Origin: Natranaeroarchaeum aerophilus
GTDB taxonomy: Archaea > Halobacteriota > Halobacteria > Halobacteriales > Natronoarchaeaceae
Assembly (NCBI RefSeq): GCF_023638055.1
Contig: NZ_JAKRVY010000008.1
Coordinates: 1-42,844, forward strand
Length of the DNA stretch: 42,844 nt
Reading direction: 5' to 3'
Positions 30,804-41,763 of the stretch are shown here, piece after piece. How positions within the stretch are numbered: the stretch's first letter is position 1; each line of letters starts with the position of its first letter. The notes beneath the pieces are model-generated. The model made no database searches, had not been told where the DNA came from, and saw nothing but the letters and a program-made list of their open reading frames with translations. Both the position numbers and the translations under genes were made by a program.

Positions 30804-31109
30804 ATGTCGAGTAGTACCCGAGACCCAGAGGTCGTACGTGTCTCGCAGAAGGGACAGGCGACGATCCCGAAGACGCTCCGGGAGAAGTTCGGGATCGACA
30901 CCCCTGGTGAGGTGTTCATTTACGAGGAAGACGAGCGGATCATCGTCGAACCAGTCCCATCACTCGAAGAGTTAGGCGGGATTCACGCTGACACCGACCG
31001 CGAGCGTGGCGACGTGATCGACCGGGTTCGCGAACTGAAACACGAGGAACACCGGCGCGAAGAGGCCCGTACTAACCGATTCCGACCGGCTGACTCGGAA
31101 GATGAATGA
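30804..31109 (+). CDS. AbrB/SpoVT-type antitoxin
   Basis: A 101-residue protein. Residues about 9-55 are a swapped-hairpin AbrB domain, with VRVSQKGQATIPKTLREKFG and the strand ERIIVEPVPSLEEL. The charged C-terminal half (about 60-101, with RVRELKHEEHRREEARTNR) should contact the toxin. It overlaps the PIN gene by 4 nt. AbrB-type antitoxins repress their own promoter through the hairpin domain; GGTAGTA repeats upstream are candidates. Confidence 0.85.
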   Translation: MSSSTRDPEVVRVSQKGQATIPKTLREKFGIDTPGEVFIYEEDERIIVEPVPSLEELGGIHADTDRERGDVIDRVRELKHEEHRREEARTNRFRPADSEDE

Positions 31110-31543
31110 GTAACCGGTACGTCTTTGATACCGAAGCGATCATCGCATACCTCTACGACGAGCCAGGTCGGAGCGTCGTCGAAGAGTATCTTCGAGACGT
31201 TCGTGACGAGACTTTCGAAGGGCTGCTGGCAGAGACCAACGCTGGCGAAGTACTCTATCTCATTGCTCGCTTCGAGGGAATTGACGACAACCCCACGACA
31301 GACTCACTTCGCACTGCCGATCGCGATCTCCGTTCGCTCGAACGGTGGGGGATTCAAATCGAACGAGCTGACTGGCGACTTGCCGCCGAGGTGAAAGCGG
31401 ATGGTCACATTTCGTTTGCGGACGCTCATGGCGTTGCACTCGCCCACGAGAGGAATGCGACACTCATCGCCGGTGCTGATGATGACTTCGAGACCCTTCC
31501 GATCGATGTCGATGTCGTTCGATTTCGCGAGGACGATGTCTAA
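31106..31543 (+). CDS. PIN-domain toxin, VapC-like
   Basis: A 145-residue PIN protein: VFDTEAIIAYLY at the N terminus (Asp8, Glu10), AETNAGEVLY with the central Glu, GHISFADAHGVALA with its Asp, and LIAGADDDFETL at the C-terminal site. All metal ligands are in place. With the AbrB-type antitoxin it makes a complete type II module. It is a different sequence from the two other PIN toxins in the window, so these were probably gained independently. Confidence 0.87.
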   Translation: MSNRYVFDTEAIIAYLYDEPGRSVVEEYLRDVRDETFEGLLAETNAGEVLYLIARFEGIDDNPTTDSLRTADRDLRSLERWGIQIERADWRLAAEVKADGHISFADAHGVALAHERNATLIAGADDDFETLPIDVDVVRFREDDV

Positions 31544-33754: not shown

Positions 33755-33821
33755 GCTGGCCCACCGAACAGCATAGACCCGGATCGTCCCGTTTTTTAGC
33801 CTGCCCGGTCCAGTGCTACCC

Positions 33822-34622
33822 GTGCGAGAGTTCTCCGAGTCGTACCTGCGGGACACCCGCGCAGGGATGTGGGACGACTCACGGCAGGCGCTTGCGGCCC
33901 TTGACCTGCAGGACTGTGACTCGATCCTCGACGTCGGCTGTGGAACGGGCGAACTCTCCCGCGTGCTCGCCGAGGAAAGCGGCGTCGAGGTGCTAGCCGT
34001 GGACGCCGACACGGACCTGCTCGATGCCGCCCGCGAGCACGTCACTCCGGTCGCCGGGGACGCGACTCGCCTGCCCATCCCCGATGATGCGGTCGATCTG
34101 GTCATCTGTCAGGCGCTGCTGATCAACCTCCCCGACCCCGCCGCCGCGATCGAGGAGTTCGCGCGCGTAGCGAGCAAGCGCGTCGCGGCGGTCGAACCGG
34201 ACAACGCCGCGGTAACGGTCGAGTCGAGCGTCGAGGCCGAGGCGGAACTCGCCGCCCGTGCGAGAGCGGCCTACCTCGACGGCGTCGGGACCGATGTCAC
34301 GCTCGGTGGGAGCCCGACTGCCGCGCTGTTCGAGCAAGCGGGACTGGACGACGTCACGACAGACCGTTACGATCACGAACGGATCGTCGCCGCGCCGTAC
34401 TCCCAGCGCGATCTCGACGCCGCAAAGCGCAAAGCGACCGGTGACGGACTGGCGGCCGACCGCACCGAGATGCAGGTCGGGGGACTGACCGACGAGGGCT
34501 ACGACCGCCTCCGGAGTGCGTGGCGCGAGATGGGGCGGGCGGTAATCGAGCAGATGCAGACCGGCGAGTACAGACGCCGCGAGGTCGTTCCTTTTTTCGT
34601 CACGACCGGTGTCGTCGAGTAG
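33822..34622 (+). CDS. SAM-dependent methyltransferase, class I
   Basis: A 266-residue protein with GTG start; CGTTTTTTAGC is centred 27 nt upstream, which supports 33822 over the GTG at 33813. Motif I is ILDVGCGTGELSRVLAE (about 35-51), followed by an acidic strand end (VLAVDADTDL), and DAVDLVICQALLINLPDPA is motif IV/V. The C-terminal part (about 130-266) is helical and may recognise the substrate. The substrate is not evident from the sequence; small molecules, ubiquinone-like quinones and proteins are all possible. Haloarchaea have several such paralogues. Confidence 0.85.
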   Translation: MREFSESYLRDTRAGMWDDSRQALAALDLQDCDSILDVGCGTGELSRVLAEESGVEVLAVDADTDLLDAAREHVTPVAGDATRLPIPDDAVDLVICQALLINLPDPAAAIEEFARVASKRVAAVEPDNAAVTVESSVEAEAELAARARAAYLDGVGTDVTLGGSPTAALFEQAGLDDVTTDRYDHERIVAAPYSQRDLDAAKRKATGDGLAADRTEMQVGGLTDEGYDRLRSAWREMGRAVIEQMQTGEYRRREVVPFFVTTGVVE

Positions 34623-34669: not shown

Positions 34670-34742
34670 AGCCGCGGCGTGATTCATGTGGGGCTCCCGA
34701 GCGGGGTAACATTCACGGTGGATGCTTCCGATAGTCATGTCA

Positions 34743-36863
34743 ATGACAGGGACAGTGTTCGCGTTTCTGGGGGGGCGCGACCGAATCGGAACGACGACGG
34801 CCGCAGTATCGGTAGGGGTTTCGATGGCCGAGACGGCGACACGCGTCGCAGTCGTCGATGCGGCGTTCGATAGCGACGGCATCGAAGAGATCATCGACGT
34901 GCAGAGCGACGACGGCGTCCGATCGGTGCTCAGGGGGGATGCCACGATCGACGAGGCGATGGTGACGGGACCGCACGGCGTTGACTACCTCCCTTCGGGA
35001 AGCGAGGCTCCCGCACCGACTGACGTCCGGACCCACCGACTCGTCCGTGCGGCGACAACGCTACGCGAGCGCTACGAATTGGTCCTGCTCGATCTCGGCC
35101 ACGGCGGCGGTGTCGACATCGCGATGGGGCTCGAACTGGCCGACGAGGCGATCCTCGTCTCGGGATCGGCCGAAGACGATCTGTCCGAGACGGCGGAGGC
35201 GGCGACCGTAGTGCGGTATCACGGCTGTCGGATCCGCGGGACCGTCCTCTCGCGAGTTCCCTCGGTGCAGGCAGTCGATATCGTCGACGTGACCGAACGG
35301 CTCAGGACCGACGTACTTGCCGTGGTTCCCGAGGACGATGCGGTACGGGCAGCCGCGGGGGCTGGCCAGTCGCTACTCCGCTATGATCCGGATAGTGATG
35401 CCGCAATGGTGTACTGGCAGCTGGCGTCGAGTCTCAGCGGTGCTGGTGGACTGACCGGGCCGGTCCTGCCAGCGAGCGCGGACGGACCGGAGTCCGATTC
35501 GAGTGGAGCGGCGACCGAGACAGCAGCGGAGGGAGACGGCGAGTCCGGGGATAGAGAGACCGACCACGCGTCAAAATCGGCGTCCGAAACCACCCCCGGA
35601 GGTGCGACTGCCGATGCATCCGGGGAGCCGGATGTCGAGGAGACACGTGCCGATCAGTCATCCGTGTCCGACGCCGCAGATCCGGCGCAATCCGGTGTCT
35701 CAGCTGCTCCGGCCGAGAGCGATCCACCGGACGGCGAACCAACCGATCACGTGCCAGCTGATCCCACAGCCGATGAGGACGCTGGTGAGTCCGCGGAACA
35801 GACTGAGCCATCGGAACTGGAAGACGAACGCGTCGAGGAGGGCGAACGCGTCGACGATGACGAGACAAAAAAGCTCGAATCGTCTCCCGAAACTGCGGAG
35901 AGCGAGGAGACCCTCTCGGACGGGGCATCGGCAGATACGGTAGCGGAGGAGCCGGCTGCGGAACGCGACCACGGCAAGAATGCCGATGATAGCGAATCGG
36001 CGACCGAACCAGCGGCGACCTCGATATCTACTGCCGATGGCGATGGAGAGTCGGACGGCGACGAGCAGACGCGTGATACGGAGCCAGCGGCTGCCGAGTT
36101 CGAATTCGAGGACACGGGCGAGGATGCCGAGAGCAAACAGGCCGACGACCAGGGAGCAGGAAACCAGCAGGCCGGAAACGACGAGGCCGACACTGGATCA
36201 GTGGCCGATCAGGGGTCGGAAATCGGATCGCCCGACGAGGAGGCGGTCGACGCCGATGACGTGGACGACGGCTTCGAGCTACCAACCGAAAACGGCGAAA
36301 GCGACCGGACTACCGCAGACAGCGACGAGGACGGCGGCTTCGAGTTACCCGGTTTCGGCGAGGACGAGAGCGGTGCTGACGATGGAACGAGTGGCGGTGG
36401 AGCTGGAACCGGTGACGGAGCCAGCGAGCAGCCACCAGTAGCTGGCTCCGGCATGGGTGACGACAGTGCCGAGGTGGCGGAGGGATCGACTGACTCTGAT
36501 GGCCGGAGGGATGAATCCCCGATAGACGAAGCGGTGCGTGAGCTCCAGGACGACCTCAACGACGACGAACTCTCCGACAGCTCGGCTCCTGACCCCGACC
36601 AGCAGAGAGACGACGGTTCAGGTGAGCCCTCGACGGGTCCGGCCGAGCGGGCGGAGCCAGCAACGAACGACCATCCCCCGGAGGATGCACTGGACGATGC
36701 TGCGGGTGATGCTGAAGAGGGTGACGACGAGGAGGTGTTCGAGGGCGTCTCTCCCGACCCCGAGAGTCTCCTTGACGAGGAACAAAAGGAAGACGACGAG
36801 ATCAACGCGCTGTTCAAGGAGACGATGGACAAAGTGACCGGCAAAGAGGACGACGAGGAGTAG
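34743..36863 (+). CDS. MinD/ParA-like protein with degenerate P-loop and long acidic tail
   Basis: A 706-residue protein. Residues 1-235 have the MinD/ParA fold, with TVFAFLGG as the first strand, VAVVDAAFDSDG as the switch region, YELVLLDLGHGGGVDIAMGL at the Walker B position, and DEAILVSGSAEDDLSETAEA. The P-loop should read KGGVGKTT but here is RDRIGTTT: signature Lys and P-loop Lys are both lost. The rest (about 240-706) is disordered and rich in Asp, Glu, Ser and Thr, with GFELP at 510-514 and again at 532-536, and a helical end (EEVFEGVSPDPESLLDEEQK and NALFKETMDKV). Start codons at 34722 and 34737 are also in frame. A non-hydrolysing positioning or scaffold protein is the best guess. 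Confidence 0.8.
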   Translation: MTGTVFAFLGGRDRIGTTTAAVSVGVSMAETATRVAVVDAAFDSDGIEEIIDVQSDDGVRSVLRGDATIDEAMVTGPHGVDYLPSGSEAPAPTDVRTHRLVRAATTLRERYELVLLDLGHGGGVDIAMGLELADEAILVSGSAEDDLSETAEAATVVRYHGCRIRGTVLSRVPSVQAVDIVDVTERLRTDVLAVVPEDDAVRAAAGAGQSLLRYDPDSDAAMVYWQLASSLSGAGGLTGPVLPASADGPESDSSGAATETAAEGDGESGDRETDHASKSASETTPGGATADASGEPDVEETRADQSSVSDAADPAQSGVSAAPAESDPPDGEPTDHVPADPTADEDAGESAEQTEPSELEDERVEEGERVDDDETKKLESSPETAESEETLSDGASADTVAEEPAAERDHGKNADDSESATEPAATSISTADGDGESDGDEQTRDTEPAAAEFEFEDTGEDAESKQADDQGAGNQQAGNDEADTGSVADQGSEIGSPDEEAVDADDVDDGFELPTENGESDRTTADSDEDGGFELPGFGEDESGADDGTSGGGAGTGDGASEQPPVAGSGMGDDSAEVAEGSTDSDGRRDESPIDEAVRELQDDLNDDELSDSSAPDPDQQRDDGSGEPSTGPAERAEPATNDHPPEDALDDAAGDAEEGDDEEVFEGVSPDPESLLDEEQKEDDEINALFKETMDKVTGKEDDEE

Positions 36864-37523
36864 CTATACGACGTCGCCGCGAACCGTCGTGCCCTCCTGT
36901 TCGGTTCGCCAGGCCTGGACGGCTTCAGCGGCTTCTTCGGCCTCGTCGTCGTCCAGCCCGATCATCGTCAGCGCCTCGGGCAGCGTGGGGAACGGGAGTT
37001 CGCCGTCTCTGAGTTTCGCCAGGGCGTCCTTGCTTCGCCGCCCCTTCCCCGCACCGTCGCCGACCCAGAGACAGGCACCTCGGGGGTCGAGGAGCTGTTC
37101 CCACGCGCCACGAGCCTTCGCGCCCTGCAGGCGCTGGGTGACGTTATCCTCGAAGCTCGCGTTGCAGACTTCGAGATGGATCGGCTCGTCGTCGTCGAGC
37201 AGATGGGCGGCGAGACACTGCTCCGGCGCGGCGTGGCCGTTCGTGTTCGCTCGCAGGTACTCGGGATGCCTGTCGGCCCAGTCAGCCCGGACCGTTCGGC
37301 CGACACCCTCGATACCGTGGGAGTCGGCAAACTCGGCGGCCCTGTCCGGTTCGTCCTCCAGCAGGATGTCCTTGGTGACGTAGACGTCGAGACGGTCGAT
37401 CGGGTCGAGGCCGAGCGCGACATCACCGTACACCCAGACCTCACGAACCGGGACCGGCATCCGCTCTTGCTCGACGGTGTCGATGATCTCCTCGGCACGG
37501 TCGAGGGCAACGCTGCGCTCCAT
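36864..37523 (-). CDS. Nucleotidyltransferase-like protein (DUF7095-like)
   Basis: A 219-residue protein. Near the N terminus VREVWVYGDVALGLDPIDRL then DVYVTKD resembles the GS-x-A-x-G and D-x-D pattern of the nucleotidyltransferase fold, though the Ser is replaced by Asp and the second acidic pair is only partly kept. The rest is helical, with HLEVCNASFEDNVTQRLQGA and a C-terminal acidic helix. I recall the haloarchaeal family as DUF7095. It meets the MinD-like gene tail to tail with no gap. The substrate is unknown. Confidence 0.7.
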   Translation of the reverse strand: MERSVALDRAEEIIDTVEQERMPVPVREVWVYGDVALGLDPIDRLDVYVTKDILLEDEPDRAAEFADSHGIEGVGRTVRADWADRHPEYLRANTNGHAAPEQCLAAHLLDDDEPIHLEVCNASFEDNVTQRLQGAKARGAWEQLLDPRGACLWVGDGAGKGRRSKDALAKLRDGELPFPTLPEALTMIGLDDDEAEEAAEAVQAWRTEQEGTTVRGDVV

Positions 37524-37595: not shown

Positions 37596-39209
37596 CTACT
37601 GGACGTATCTGTCCGGGATCTCCTGTGCGTACTCGGAAATCGTTGGCGCGGCTTCGTCGAGCGCCGTCTTGGCGTCGTTGATATCTCGAACGACGCTGTT
37701 CATCGCTACCGCTGCCTCGGTCATGATCGGCATGTTCTGTGGGGTGTCAACCGGGATCGCAGGCGGGTCTGTCGGGACGTTGTTCATCCCCTCGATGTGT
37801 GCATCGAGGAAGCTCCGGGTGATGCCGGGATGGCTCTCGTCGATGCCGACCACTTCGTCGAGGTAGTTCAGCCGTGCAGTGCCGGCACGTGGGCCGTGGC
37901 CCTCCCACTGGCGGGCGGAGAGCATGTAATTGCCGAGACGGGAGTTTGCCCACTGGATGAACAGCCACGCTGCCTCCGGATTGTCCGAGTACTGGCTAAT
38001 TCCGGTCGCCCAGACCCAGGTGGCAACTTCGGGATCGCTACCGTCGGGTGCCGGAAGCGGCGGGATCCAGTGTGTGCGCTCGATCTGCTCTTCGGTGATC
38101 GCACCGGACGTCGAGGGGGTCGTGTAGATCATCGCCGTCTCGCCCGCGGCGAGTGCGTTGTTCGCGCGGTACCAGTTCTTCTGGCCCGGATCCTCGGGAC
38201 CGTAATCCCGCATCAGGCGGCCAAAGAGTTCCAGCGACTCGACGCCGCCGCCGGGATCGGCAAGGGCCGCTTCCCGTCGGTCGCGATCGATCCAGTTGCC
38301 ACCGTGGGTTTTGAACATCGTTGCCCAGTTGGCACTGGAAAGCGTCGTCGTGCTAGTTCGAGAAGTGATCCCCGCACGGGGAGCGTCGTCGTACTGTGTC
38401 ACCACGTCCGAGTCGTGAATGATCTCGGCTGTGCGTTCGAGATCCTCGAACGTCGAGATCTCCTCGCCCGGATCGTCGGCGATGTCGTCGATCGCCTCGA
38501 AGGTGGGGACGTCACAGCCGACCGCGCCGTAGGCCTCGATTCCGTTTGGAAAGCCGGTGAGCTGGGCCTCGCCGTCGGGGCCGGGGAACGACATGAGCTC
38601 GATCGTATCGTCGAGGAAATCGTCCATCGCGAGCCAGTCACGGTCGGTCAGGTCGTCGTCCTCGATGAACTCGTTGAGGTCGCGCACCCAGCCGTTCGCG
38701 TGGAACTCCCCGGCCTGCCAGAGGCCGGTCATCATCCCGTCGTACTCGCGTCTGTTCTGTAGGTCGTCCCGGGCTTCGAGCCAGTACTGGTCTTCCGGGA
38801 AGATCTCGTACTCGACCTCAATCCCCGTCAGCTCCTCGAAAGCCGGAATCACCGGTTGCGTGACCGTCGAGTACGGGTGAAGGCCCATACCGAAGGTCAG
38901 CGTGATGTCGTCGTCCGCGAACTGCTGCCAGTCGATATCCGCTCCGTCGCCGGTGTCGGGAACAGTATCCGGGTCGAAAAGGACGTCGCCGTCGACATCC
39001 GGGTCGTATCGATCCCGGCCGTCGGCGTGGTCGTTGAGGATCTTCCCCCAGACTTTCGCCCCGTCGTCGGCCGCGGGGTACCCGCTCGCGGCCGTCTCCT
39101 CGTCCGATCCGTTCCCGAAGCCATCCAGACAGCCGGCGAGACCGGCGACACTGGAGGCACCGATCAGTTTCAGCGCGTTTCGTCGTGAGATGGATTGTTC
39201 GTGTCTCAT
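37596..39209 (-). CDS. Extracellular solute-binding lipoprotein, family 1
   Basis: A 537-residue protein. The Tat signal has RR at 9-10 and the lipobox LAGC with Cys27. The mature chain is a MalE-like two-lobe binding protein: ITLTFGMGLHPYSTVTQPVI, FEELTGIEVEYEIFPEDQYW, YDGMMTGLWQAGEFHANGWV as the first lobe, and GNWIDRDRREAALADPGGG, ATWVWATGISQYSDNPEAAW further on. The ligand is probably a sugar or related polyol. The usual ABC permease and ATPase genes are absent. Instead its start lies 6 nt after the stop of a chemotaxis transducer gene, so its partner is likely to be the transducer. Only the C-terminal segment (about 480-537) is poorly conserved by eye. Confidence 0.88.
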   Translation of the reverse strand: MRHEQSISRRNALKLIGASSVAGLAGCLDGFGNGSDEETAASGYPAADDGAKVWGKILNDHADGRDRYDPDVDGDVLFDPDTVPDTGDGADIDWQQFADDDITLTFGMGLHPYSTVTQPVIPAFEELTGIEVEYEIFPEDQYWLEARDDLQNRREYDGMMTGLWQAGEFHANGWVRDLNEFIEDDDLTDRDWLAMDDFLDDTIELMSFPGPDGEAQLTGFPNGIEAYGAVGCDVPTFEAIDDIADDPGEEISTFEDLERTAEIIHDSDVVTQYDDAPRAGITSRTSTTTLSSANWATMFKTHGGNWIDRDRREAALADPGGGVESLELFGRLMRDYGPEDPGQKNWYRANNALAAGETAMIYTTPSTSGAITEEQIERTHWIPPLPAPDGSDPEVATWVWATGISQYSDNPEAAWLFIQWANSRLGNYMLSARQWEGHGPRAGTARLNYLDEVVGIDESHPGITRSFLDAHIEGMNNVPTDPPAIPVDTPQNMPIMTEAAVAMNSVVRDINDAKTALDEAAPTISEYAQEIPDRYVQ

Positions 39210-39215
39210 AAACTA

Positions 39216-41741
39216 TCAGTCCTCGCTCTGTGCGGCGTCCTCGACGAACGCGAACATGTCTTCGTCCGTGTCGTCGGTCGGGTCGGGTCGCTGCTCTCCG
39301 GTCGCCCGGTCGTCTTCGGTCAGTCCCATCTCTGGGTCGTCATCTATCCTGGCGTCCGGTGTGTCGGTCGTCGGCTCACCATCCGTGAGGGCCCGCTCGG
39401 TGTCCGTCTCCAGTTCGTTCGTCTCGACGTCCTCGCCAGTGACGAACCGGTCGAGCGCGGTGGAAAGCTGTGATGCGCGCATCGAGAGATCGCCAGCCGA
39501 GCGGGACATCTCGGTGAGTGCGGTCGTTTGCTGTTCGGCGGCAGCCGCGACGTTCTCGGACTCCGCGCTGGTCTCTTCGCTGATCGTGGCCGTCTCGTCG
39601 ATGACGGCGACGACCTCCTGGGTCGCGCTCGCCTGCTCTCTGGTTGCGCTGTCGATCGTCTGGACGCCCTCGTTCGTTTCGGTCGCGTACTCGGCGATCT
39701 CTTCGAGCGCGTCCGCAGCCTCCTTGACCGAATCGGTCTGGTGTGAGATCTGTTCACGTGTCGTCTGGACCTCCTCGGCAGTTCGATCGGTCTCGGCTTT
39801 GACGCGGTCGAGACGTTCTTCGATGTCCTCGGCGGCGTCTTTGGTCTCGGACGCCAGCTCTTTGACCTCCTCGGCGACGACGCCGAAGCCATCAGTGCTG
39901 CCCTCGCCCGCCGAGCGGGACGCCTCGATGTTGGCGTTGAGCGCGAGCATGTTGGTCTGGTTGGCAATCTCGGTGATGAACTCCAGCAGCTCGTCGATCT
40001 GTGCGATCTCGTCTTGCAGCCGCTCCATCGCGTCGACGGTATCCTCGCTCTCGGCCTCGATCCGGCTCATGCCCTCGATCGCCGTCTGTGCGGCCGACTG
40101 CCCCGCACGGCCGGTTTCGGCGGTCCGTTGTGCGATCTCGGCGACTTCAGTCGATGTCGTCGAGATGTCCTCGACAGCAGTCGAGAGGTCGTTCAGCTGG
40201 ACGTTCGCCCGCTGCAGGGCGTCGTTCTGTCGATCCGCACCGTCGGAAATCTCCTGGATCGATTCGGTTACCTGCTCGCTTGCACTGCGAACCTCCTCGC
40301 TGGATGCCGTGACCTCCTCGCTGGCGGTCGCGACCTCCATCGCGAACTGTTTGAGCCCGGCGACCGTGGCCTCTATCTCGTCGAGCATGGCGTTGAAGTC
40401 CTCGCCGATACCGCGCATCTGTGCGTTGTCGGTCTCGACGTCGGCCCGAACGGAGAGATCGCCGTCCGCGGCAGTGCCCATGACGGCACAGTACTCCTCG
40501 GCCGCTTTCTCCAGATCGTCGTTGATCTGCTCGACGCGCTCGCGTTCGGCTTCTGCCGTCTCGCGAGCCCCCTGTGCCTCGCGGATCTGTTCGCGCAAGG
40601 CATCGCGCATGCTGCCAAAGGCCCGGAACAGATCGCCGATCTCGTCGGCTCGGCTCACTTCGAACTCCTCGTCGAGGTTCCCCTGTTTTAGCGCCTCGGC
40701 TTTCGTGCTCAACTGATTGATCGAGCGAACTGTCCCCCGTCCGAAGGTGACGGCGATCGCGGCGAGTCCGACGAACATCGTTCCCATCAGCAAGAGCAGG
40801 CTCGACAGGATGTCGGACTGAAGAGCAAACGCCTGATCGCTCGGGACGTGAACGGCCACGACGAGGTCGACGTCCTCGTCGCCGACCGGGGCGAACGCCG
40901 TCACGTAGTCACGATCGAGACCCTCCTTTTCGGTACGGTCGAGGAAGCCGGTCTCACCGTCGAAACCACGGTCGACGATCGCCGAGTCCGCACCAAGTGG
41001 CGAGTATGCGGGGAACTCGCCGAGGTTCGCTTCGAGCTGGGTCTGTTCTTGCTCTCCGGCGACGATGTTACCGTCACGGTTGACGACCTGTGTGAAGCCG
41101 TCGTCATCATCGCTGTCGAACCCTTCTGTCACCGTCCCGAGGTTCGTCGTAATCACCAGTACCTCGTTGGTGTCGTCGTTCGGGACTGGACTCACGTACG
41201 AGACGGTCGGTGCACCCTGAATCTCCTCGACGTCGGAGACGTAGACCTCGTCGTCTTCGAGCTCGCGGTCCTCCCACGCCCACGGCGCTTCGACGATGTT
41301 CACCTGGGTGCCTTCACGGGCGTTTTCGCTGCTGTTGATGATCTCACGCTCGTCGAGGTCGACGAAGTGCATCGCCCTGATATCCTCGGGGAGCCGATCG
41401 ACCTCACTGGTCAGAAACTGGGAAACGTCCTCGCTCCCACCCGTCTGGAACTGGTTCAACTCGGCGGTGCTCCTGACGTTTGCGGAGCGCTCGGACTGCC
41501 AGTCTTCGAGGCTTTCGGCGTGCCGATCGGCGACGCCAGTGTACTCGGATTCGACATCGTCGGATAGCTGAGCTGATGTCTGTGCGTACGCCACGACGCT
41601 GACGCCACCGACGACCAGCAGGACGATCAACAGCGTTGCGACGAACTTCCGGACGAAGCTTCGACGGATGAACCCCGGGACGAGTCGCCTCCCGAGACCG
41701 GGGTTCTGTTTGTTTACTGATTTATCATCAGGTTCTCCCAT
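39216..41741 (-). CDS. Methyl-accepting chemotaxis transducer
   Basis: An 841-residue membrane receptor. Membrane helix 1 lies at about 32-52 and helix 2 at about 312-333. Between them is a 260-residue extracellular sensor of dCache type, with IRAMHFVDLDEREIINSSE and GAPTVSYVSPVPNDDTNEVL. A HAMP domain (about 334-387) and a second HAMP-like segment (about 425-480) lead to the long coiled signalling domain. Its hairpin tip is ITEIANQTNMLALNANIEAS (about 585-605), the CheA/CheW contact. Possible methylation Gln/Glu pairs flank it. The tail is acidic and long. I start at 41741 since TATAAT at 41765-41770 gives 27 nt to this ATG; the ATG at 41753 is too near. It is transcribed with the binding lipoprotein. 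Confidence 0.92.
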   Translation of the reverse strand: MGEPDDKSVNKQNPGLGRRLVPGFIRRSFVRKFVATLLIVLLVVGGVSVVAYAQTSAQLSDDVESEYTGVADRHAESLEDWQSERSANVRSTAELNQFQTGGSEDVSQFLTSEVDRLPEDIRAMHFVDLDEREIINSSENAREGTQVNIVEAPWAWEDRELEDDEVYVSDVEEIQGAPTVSYVSPVPNDDTNEVLVITTNLGTVTEGFDSDDDDGFTQVVNRDGNIVAGEQEQTQLEANLGEFPAYSPLGADSAIVDRGFDGETGFLDRTEKEGLDRDYVTAFAPVGDEDVDLVVAVHVPSDQAFALQSDILSSLLLLMGTMFVGLAAIAVTFGRGTVRSINQLSTKAEALKQGNLDEEFEVSRADEIGDLFRAFGSMRDALREQIREAQGARETAEAERERVEQINDDLEKAAEEYCAVMGTAADGDLSVRADVETDNAQMRGIGEDFNAMLDEIEATVAGLKQFAMEVATASEEVTASSEEVRSASEQVTESIQEISDGADRQNDALQRANVQLNDLSTAVEDISTTSTEVAEIAQRTAETGRAGQSAAQTAIEGMSRIEAESEDTVDAMERLQDEIAQIDELLEFITEIANQTNMLALNANIEASRSAGEGSTDGFGVVAEEVKELASETKDAAEDIEERLDRVKAETDRTAEEVQTTREQISHQTDSVKEAADALEEIAEYATETNEGVQTIDSATREQASATQEVVAVIDETATISEETSAESENVAAAAEQQTTALTEMSRSAGDLSMRASQLSTALDRFVTGEDVETNELETDTERALTDGEPTTDTPDARIDDDPEMGLTEDDRATGEQRPDPTDDTDEDMFAFVEDAAQSED

Positions 41742-41763
41742 AGCCGTGGACATATCCGTTTAC

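Follow-up and report, generated by a model that had tools for sequence, protein, structure and literature searches.

In Haloferax volcanii, oscillation of the positioning protein MinD4 is independent of its Walker A and Walker B motifs, and cells with a truncated MinD4 C-terminal tail are impaired in motility (PMC11621097). The motility function of Hfx. volcanii MinD2 is largely independent of the P-loop lysine; substitution K16A had no effect when expressed from a plasmid (PMC11588486) and a mild effect in the chromosome (PMC11621097), and the effect of D117A was severe (PMC11588486; PMC11621097). In bacteria, Eubacterium rectale TadZ is reported to be ATPase-active with both P-loop lysines naturally lost, and lysine mutants of the mycobacterial MinD MSMEG_3743 retain ATPase activity (PMC10482377). 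TadZ localises to a cell pole, according to the title of a paper cited in PMC6328274. McdA from Synechococcus elongatus has a serine in place of the deviant signature lysine and is a fast, hyperactive ATPase (PMC6328274). A literature search that covered few subscription journals found no paper describing a degenerate Walker A motif in a haloarchaeal MinD.

The window analysed here (42,844 nucleotides from Natranaeroarchaeum aerophilus) encodes such a protein (Table 1). Its start codon was placed at the ATG at 34743, and not at a further in-frame ATG at 34722, because the orthologues all begin at the equivalent of 34743. The initial annotation assigned the N-terminal domain to the ParA/MinD fold, and this is supported by a match to the minD_arch family TIGR01969 (E 7.3e-29), by the AF2 model, and by the best PDB match of the predicted core, Archaeoglobus fulgidus MinD (1hyq; TM 0.91 by target length, 26% identity), which is the closest solved fold. 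A. fulgidus MinD is tail-less and has a canonical P-loop. The TIGR01969 score of the core (100.7 bits) is under the cut-off of 201.75; in the same genome the MinD4-type core passes it (217.8 bits), and the canonical MinD2-type protein also falls short (190.6 bits). An orthologue from the Halostella genus is likewise predicted as a MinD fold (pLDDT 84-98), with archaeal MinD as its nearest PDB structure. The MinD-type Rossmann fold and sequence similarity together place the protein in the ParA/MinD superfamily.

Table 1. Features of the degenerate minD locus, with positions in the window and residues of the 706-aa protein.
Feature	Position	Strand	Basis or remark
MazE-like antitoxin gene then PIN-domain gene, likely toxin-antitoxin pair	30804..31540	+	present in sister species too
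SAM methyltransferase, upstream syntenic flank	33813..34622	+	synteny
Degenerate MinD paralogue gene	34743..36863	+	706 aa, TIGR01969 match
MinD-fold core, residues 1-234	34743..35444	+	AF2, pLDDT mostly 75-95
P-loop, degenerate (GGRDRIGTTT, residues 10-19), with R for K12 and T for K17	34770..34799	+	alignment
Residues 39-46 (switch I), with D39 retained, A in place of D41 and G in place of N46	34857..34880	+	alignment
Walker B region VLLDLGHGG, residues 114-122; D117 and G119 kept	35082..35108	+	alignment
Residues 149-152, site of lost canonical D149 and K152	35187..35198	+	alignment
W225, tryptophan particular to the degenerate clade	35415..35417	+	W in 9/9; R, T or K in 19 canonical paralogues
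Acidic disordered tail, residues 235-706 (about 470 aa)	35445..36860	+	composition, AF2
GFELP copy 1, residues 510-514, lineage-specific	36270..36284	+	sequence comparison
GFELP copy 2, residues 532-536; sister species has one GFELP in all	36336..36350	+	sequence comparison
C-terminal helix motif INALFKETMDKVTGK, residues 687-701	36801..36845	+	gapless block in 9 tails
DUF7095 (PF23378) gene, convergent syntenic flank	36864..37523	-	synteny
Solute-binding protein and dCache/HAMP/MCP transducer pair	37599..41753	-	

Orthologues were sought among 59 relatives, in 391 genomes of the class (seven candidates per genome fully scored), and in both families concerned. Nine haloarchaeal orthologues were found, from two families and all at one syntenic spot: two in the window's genus, two in a second genus of its family, three in the five genomes of the Halostella genus, and two in Salinarchaeum. 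The gene is present in seven of nine genomes of the window's family, missing from two in the Halostella genus, and missing from one of three Salinarchaeum-family genomes (G017). Nearly all of the class is without it, as scored from seven candidates in each of the 391 genomes, and the class search shows a step in score between 246 and 201 bits, the latter marking the first canonical proteins. In a tree of 55 cores, the nine degenerate proteins form one clade (support 100/99), separate from the MinD2 clade (100/100) and from the MinD4-type proteins encoded at the aRF1-argS locus. The clade has a long stem and weak neighbouring forks, with no resolved sister paralogue in this tree. The MinD at the aRF1-minD-argS locus probably corresponds to MinD4 (HVO_0322 type), and the short KGGTGKTT paralogue to MinD2 (HVO_0595 type). 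Judged from the sequences, this MinD paralogue has been retained by vertical descent, is narrowly distributed, and carries an eroded ATP site.

The ParA/MinD deviant Walker A motif, KGGxGK[ST], is absent from the protein; canonical relatives have SGKGGVGKTT at residues 10-19. Nine degenerate orthologues were compared with 19 canonical paralogues, residue by residue. The initial annotation described both P-loop lysines as lost, and the orthologue alignment it called for agrees: K17 is gone in all nine (T in six, A in three), which is more than chance, and the deviant lysine K12 is gone in eight, with both kept in 19/19 canonical paralogues. Sequencing error, isolated mutation, and pseudogene are excluded by the eight further orthologues. 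The P-loop differs from genus to genus within the clade (GGRDRIGTTT in two genomes, and GGRGDVGATTT, GGKDDVGATAT, GGTDDVGTTTT, GGSSGAGATTT, GGSDGVGTTTA, AGTIAGAGTTT, and VGTIAGAGTTT). Erosion extends beyond it. N46 is absent from all nine orthologues and invariant in the 19 canonical proteins, D41 is gone in five of nine, and D149 and K152, found in 19/19 canonical paralogues, occur in none of the degenerate ones. Going by E. coli MinD, we take the lost residues to belong to the P-loop, switch I, and a helix at the dimer and partner face. Retained across the orthologues are G16 and T18 of the P-loop, D39, G119, and the Walker B aspartate D117 (invariant in 9/9). The Walker B region had been read as LLDLGHGG (residues 115-122), which is correct, and as abnormal, which is overstated because D117 is kept and the stretch is close to the canonical LLDVGAGI.

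Since G16, T18, D39, and D117 are invariant, binding of Mg-nucleotide may persist. A variant ATPase would bind, and perhaps hydrolyse, ATP by an altered site, as in TadZ. We consider this rather unlikely for the degenerate clade, although the four invariant residues and the activities of E. rectale TadZ, the MSMEG_3743 lysine mutants, and McdA are in its favour, because erosion has gone beyond the lysines (N46, D149, and K152 in 9/9, D41 in 5/9) and the P-loop itself varies between genera. That ATP hydrolysis needs both lysines, as first proposed, does not stand as a firm rule, and their loss is no proof of lost ATPase activity because a TadZ without them is reported active (PMC10482377). McdA resembles the degenerate clade in its replaced signature lysine but lacks that lysine only, whereas the clade has mostly lost both. 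TadZ shares the natural loss of both lysines in one member, but TadZ/CpaE proteins are bacterial and encoded in tad loci, many carrying an extra N-terminal domain, whereas the degenerate protein carries an acidic tail at its C-terminus, and the neighbours identified in the nine genomes include no tad genes.

The core evolves under purifying selection. Pairwise Nei-Gojobori dN/dS of the core, with some pairs near saturation and values compared raw, was 0.18, 0.26, and 0.19 in the three archaellin-bearing genera and 0.32-0.48 in the Halostella genus; for the same pairs, MinD2, MinD4, DUF7095, and the methyltransferase gave 0.05-0.28. Against the sister species (G001), dN/dS was 0.58 for the tail and 0.18 for the core. 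A slowly decaying duplicate without a current role would account for this fast tail evolution and for the absence of the gene from two of nine family genomes and nearly all of the class, but it is very improbable given the core dN/dS (0.18-0.48), nine open frames, and a conserved helix at the extreme C-terminus.

The tail is highly acidic and predicted to be disordered, in line with the initial annotation (33% D+E, 4% K+R; AF2 pLDDT mostly 35-50, with a weaker helix at residues 594-603). It was not gained by this protein in particular, since canonical MinD4 proteins bear comparable acidic tails; that of the MinD4 in the same genome has 39% D+E over 185 aa. GFELP does occur twice, but it is not conserved among the orthologues: there are two copies here, one in the sister species, and none in the other seven orthologues, and a DNA pattern encoding it occurs at three other places in the genome. 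Limited to one genus and not repeated in the sister species, GFELP was rejected as a tandem docking motif. Conservation in the tail lies in the C-terminal helix, with consensus [VIM]-x-A-x-F-K-x-T-M-x-x-V. It forms a gapless 15-residue block in all nine tails, scoring 52.3 bits versus 27.1 +/- 0.7 (maximum 28.9) in 60 shuffles, a difference that kinship inflates, and the rest of the tail is barely alignable between genera. AF2 predicts a helix at residues 675-700 (pLDDT about 80), and a strict DNA pattern for the motif has a single match in the genome.

Among known systems, MinD4 resembles the degenerate protein in having a MinD fold and, in many lineages, a long acidic C-terminal tail. MinD4-type proteins, however, keep KGGVGKTT, N46, D149, and K152, often end in a GLFGRIGSLF-like tip with no F-K-x-T-M helix noted there, and group apart in the tree, and a canonical paralogue occupies the aRF1-argS locus. 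Members from the Halostella genus have GLLGRLFD-like tips resembling a MinD membrane-targeting end, and the window protein is without such a tip. MinD2 shares the MinD fold and a function largely independent of the P-loop lysine (PMC11588486; PMC11621097), but it is a 257-aa, tail-less protein with an intact P-loop from a different clade. Canonical MinD2 and MinD4 co-occur with the degenerate protein in gene-bearing genomes. In the Salinarchaeum genomes the acidic tail is carried by the degenerate paralogue and is missing from the MinD of the aRF1-argS locus, which is about 250 aa long. A heterodimer, in which the degenerate protein tunes a canonical MinD or supplies it with an acidic tail in trans, would draw on both observations; we regard it as quite improbable, as D149 and K152 are lost from a helix expected at the dimer face.

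Conserved gene neighbourhoods gave no direct pointer to a client. In 9/9 genomes the gene adjoins convergent DUF7095 and has the methyltransferase upstream; in the Halostella genus a single glycosyltransferase gene separates methyltransferase and degenerate minD. In several other haloarchaea the methyltransferase and DUF7095 are 7-50 bp apart, so the gene appears to be inserted between them; elsewhere the gap holds an M29 peptidase, Usp, Cdc6, or glycosyltransferase gene, and not a MinD gene. Among 80 named haloarchaeal DUF7095 loci, a set that perhaps leaves out the window's genome and near kin, the gene was found only in H. pelagica and S. laminariae; the S. laminariae R26 locus is 100% identical to that of one of the two Salinarchaeum carriers. 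No conserved operon partner pointing to a client was found, both flanks also pairing in genomes without the gene. The solute-binding protein and transducer pair nearby is missing at the matching place in the sister species, save for a 91-bp match to the solute-binding protein gene, indicating lineage-specific gain or loss. The transducer link drawn in the initial annotation is therefore not supported, and the operon was rejected as context.

Motility is a further possible connection. In Salinarchaeum, where the arl genes were named by Pfam hits and gene order, the series arlF, arlG, arlH, arlI, and arlJ is followed directly, in the same orientation, by DUF7095, a placement that could hint at a connection of the DUF7095 family with motility; the degenerate minD is one gene away from arlFGHIJ. 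The distance from the gene to arlJ is about 14-22 kb in the window's genus; the second genus, with its arl operon on a different contig, shows no arl linkage. Archaellin genes (PF01917) were found in the window's genus, the second genus, and the Salinarchaeum family, including all six gene carriers outside the Halostella genus, and in none of the five Halostella-genus genomes. CheW is present in 12/12 genomes examined; all five Halostella-genus genomes thus have chemosensory genes without archaellins.

The initial annotation proposed a scaffold devoted to placing archaella or chemoreceptor arrays. The proximity to arl genes in Salinarchaeum and the window's genus, the archaellins of 6/6 carriers outside the Halostella genus, and CheW throughout are consistent with it, as are the weakest constraint (0.32-0.48) and most frequent loss in the archaellin-free Halostella genus. 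Weaker constraint and commoner loss where archaella are missing are suggestive, in few genomes. We nonetheless judge this role to be unlikely, given that three Halostella-genus genomes keep the gene without archaellins, G017 has archaellins and no gene, arl linkage is missing in the second genus, and the sister species lacks the neighbouring transducer. Because archaellin-free Halostella genomes retain the gene, positioning of archaella cannot be the whole role, and an archaellum-only role was rejected on this basis. The more general part of the proposal, a non-hydrolysing scaffold, fares better: with the ATP site eroded in every orthologue and the core under purifying selection, a non-cycling scaffold or adaptor can fairly be drawn from the data.

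We therefore regard the protein as a distinct haloarchaeal MinD paralogue that is probably, at about even confidence, a pseudo-ATPase adaptor in a MinD-based positioning network. Such a role is plausible because haloarchaeal MinD4 and MinD2 act partly without their ATP site (PMC11621097; PMC11588486). The MinD fold would serve as a rigid docking module that no longer goes through ATP-driven cycles of sandwich dimerisation, the fast-evolving acidic tail as a disordered tether, and the C-terminal helix (F-K-x-T-M-x-x-V) as the part that docks to a partner. Most likely the protein serves the cell's MinD positioning network, in which canonical MinD2 and MinD4 are both present, as a passive partner or adaptor.

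A more specific proposal, which we put forward tentatively as a possibility, is that the clade is an archaeal MinD pseudo-ATPase family of adaptors uncoupled from ATP, which ride on or cap the canonical MinD system via the C-terminal helix. If true, this would be a natural counterpart of the Walker-independent oscillation of Haloferax MinD4. The alignment gives residues worth testing, and the C-terminal helix could serve as bait for the partner. Beside the reported oscillation of Haloferax MinD4 without its ATP site, a MinD lineage that lacks the site and is kept by selection offers a natural test of ATP-free MinD function.
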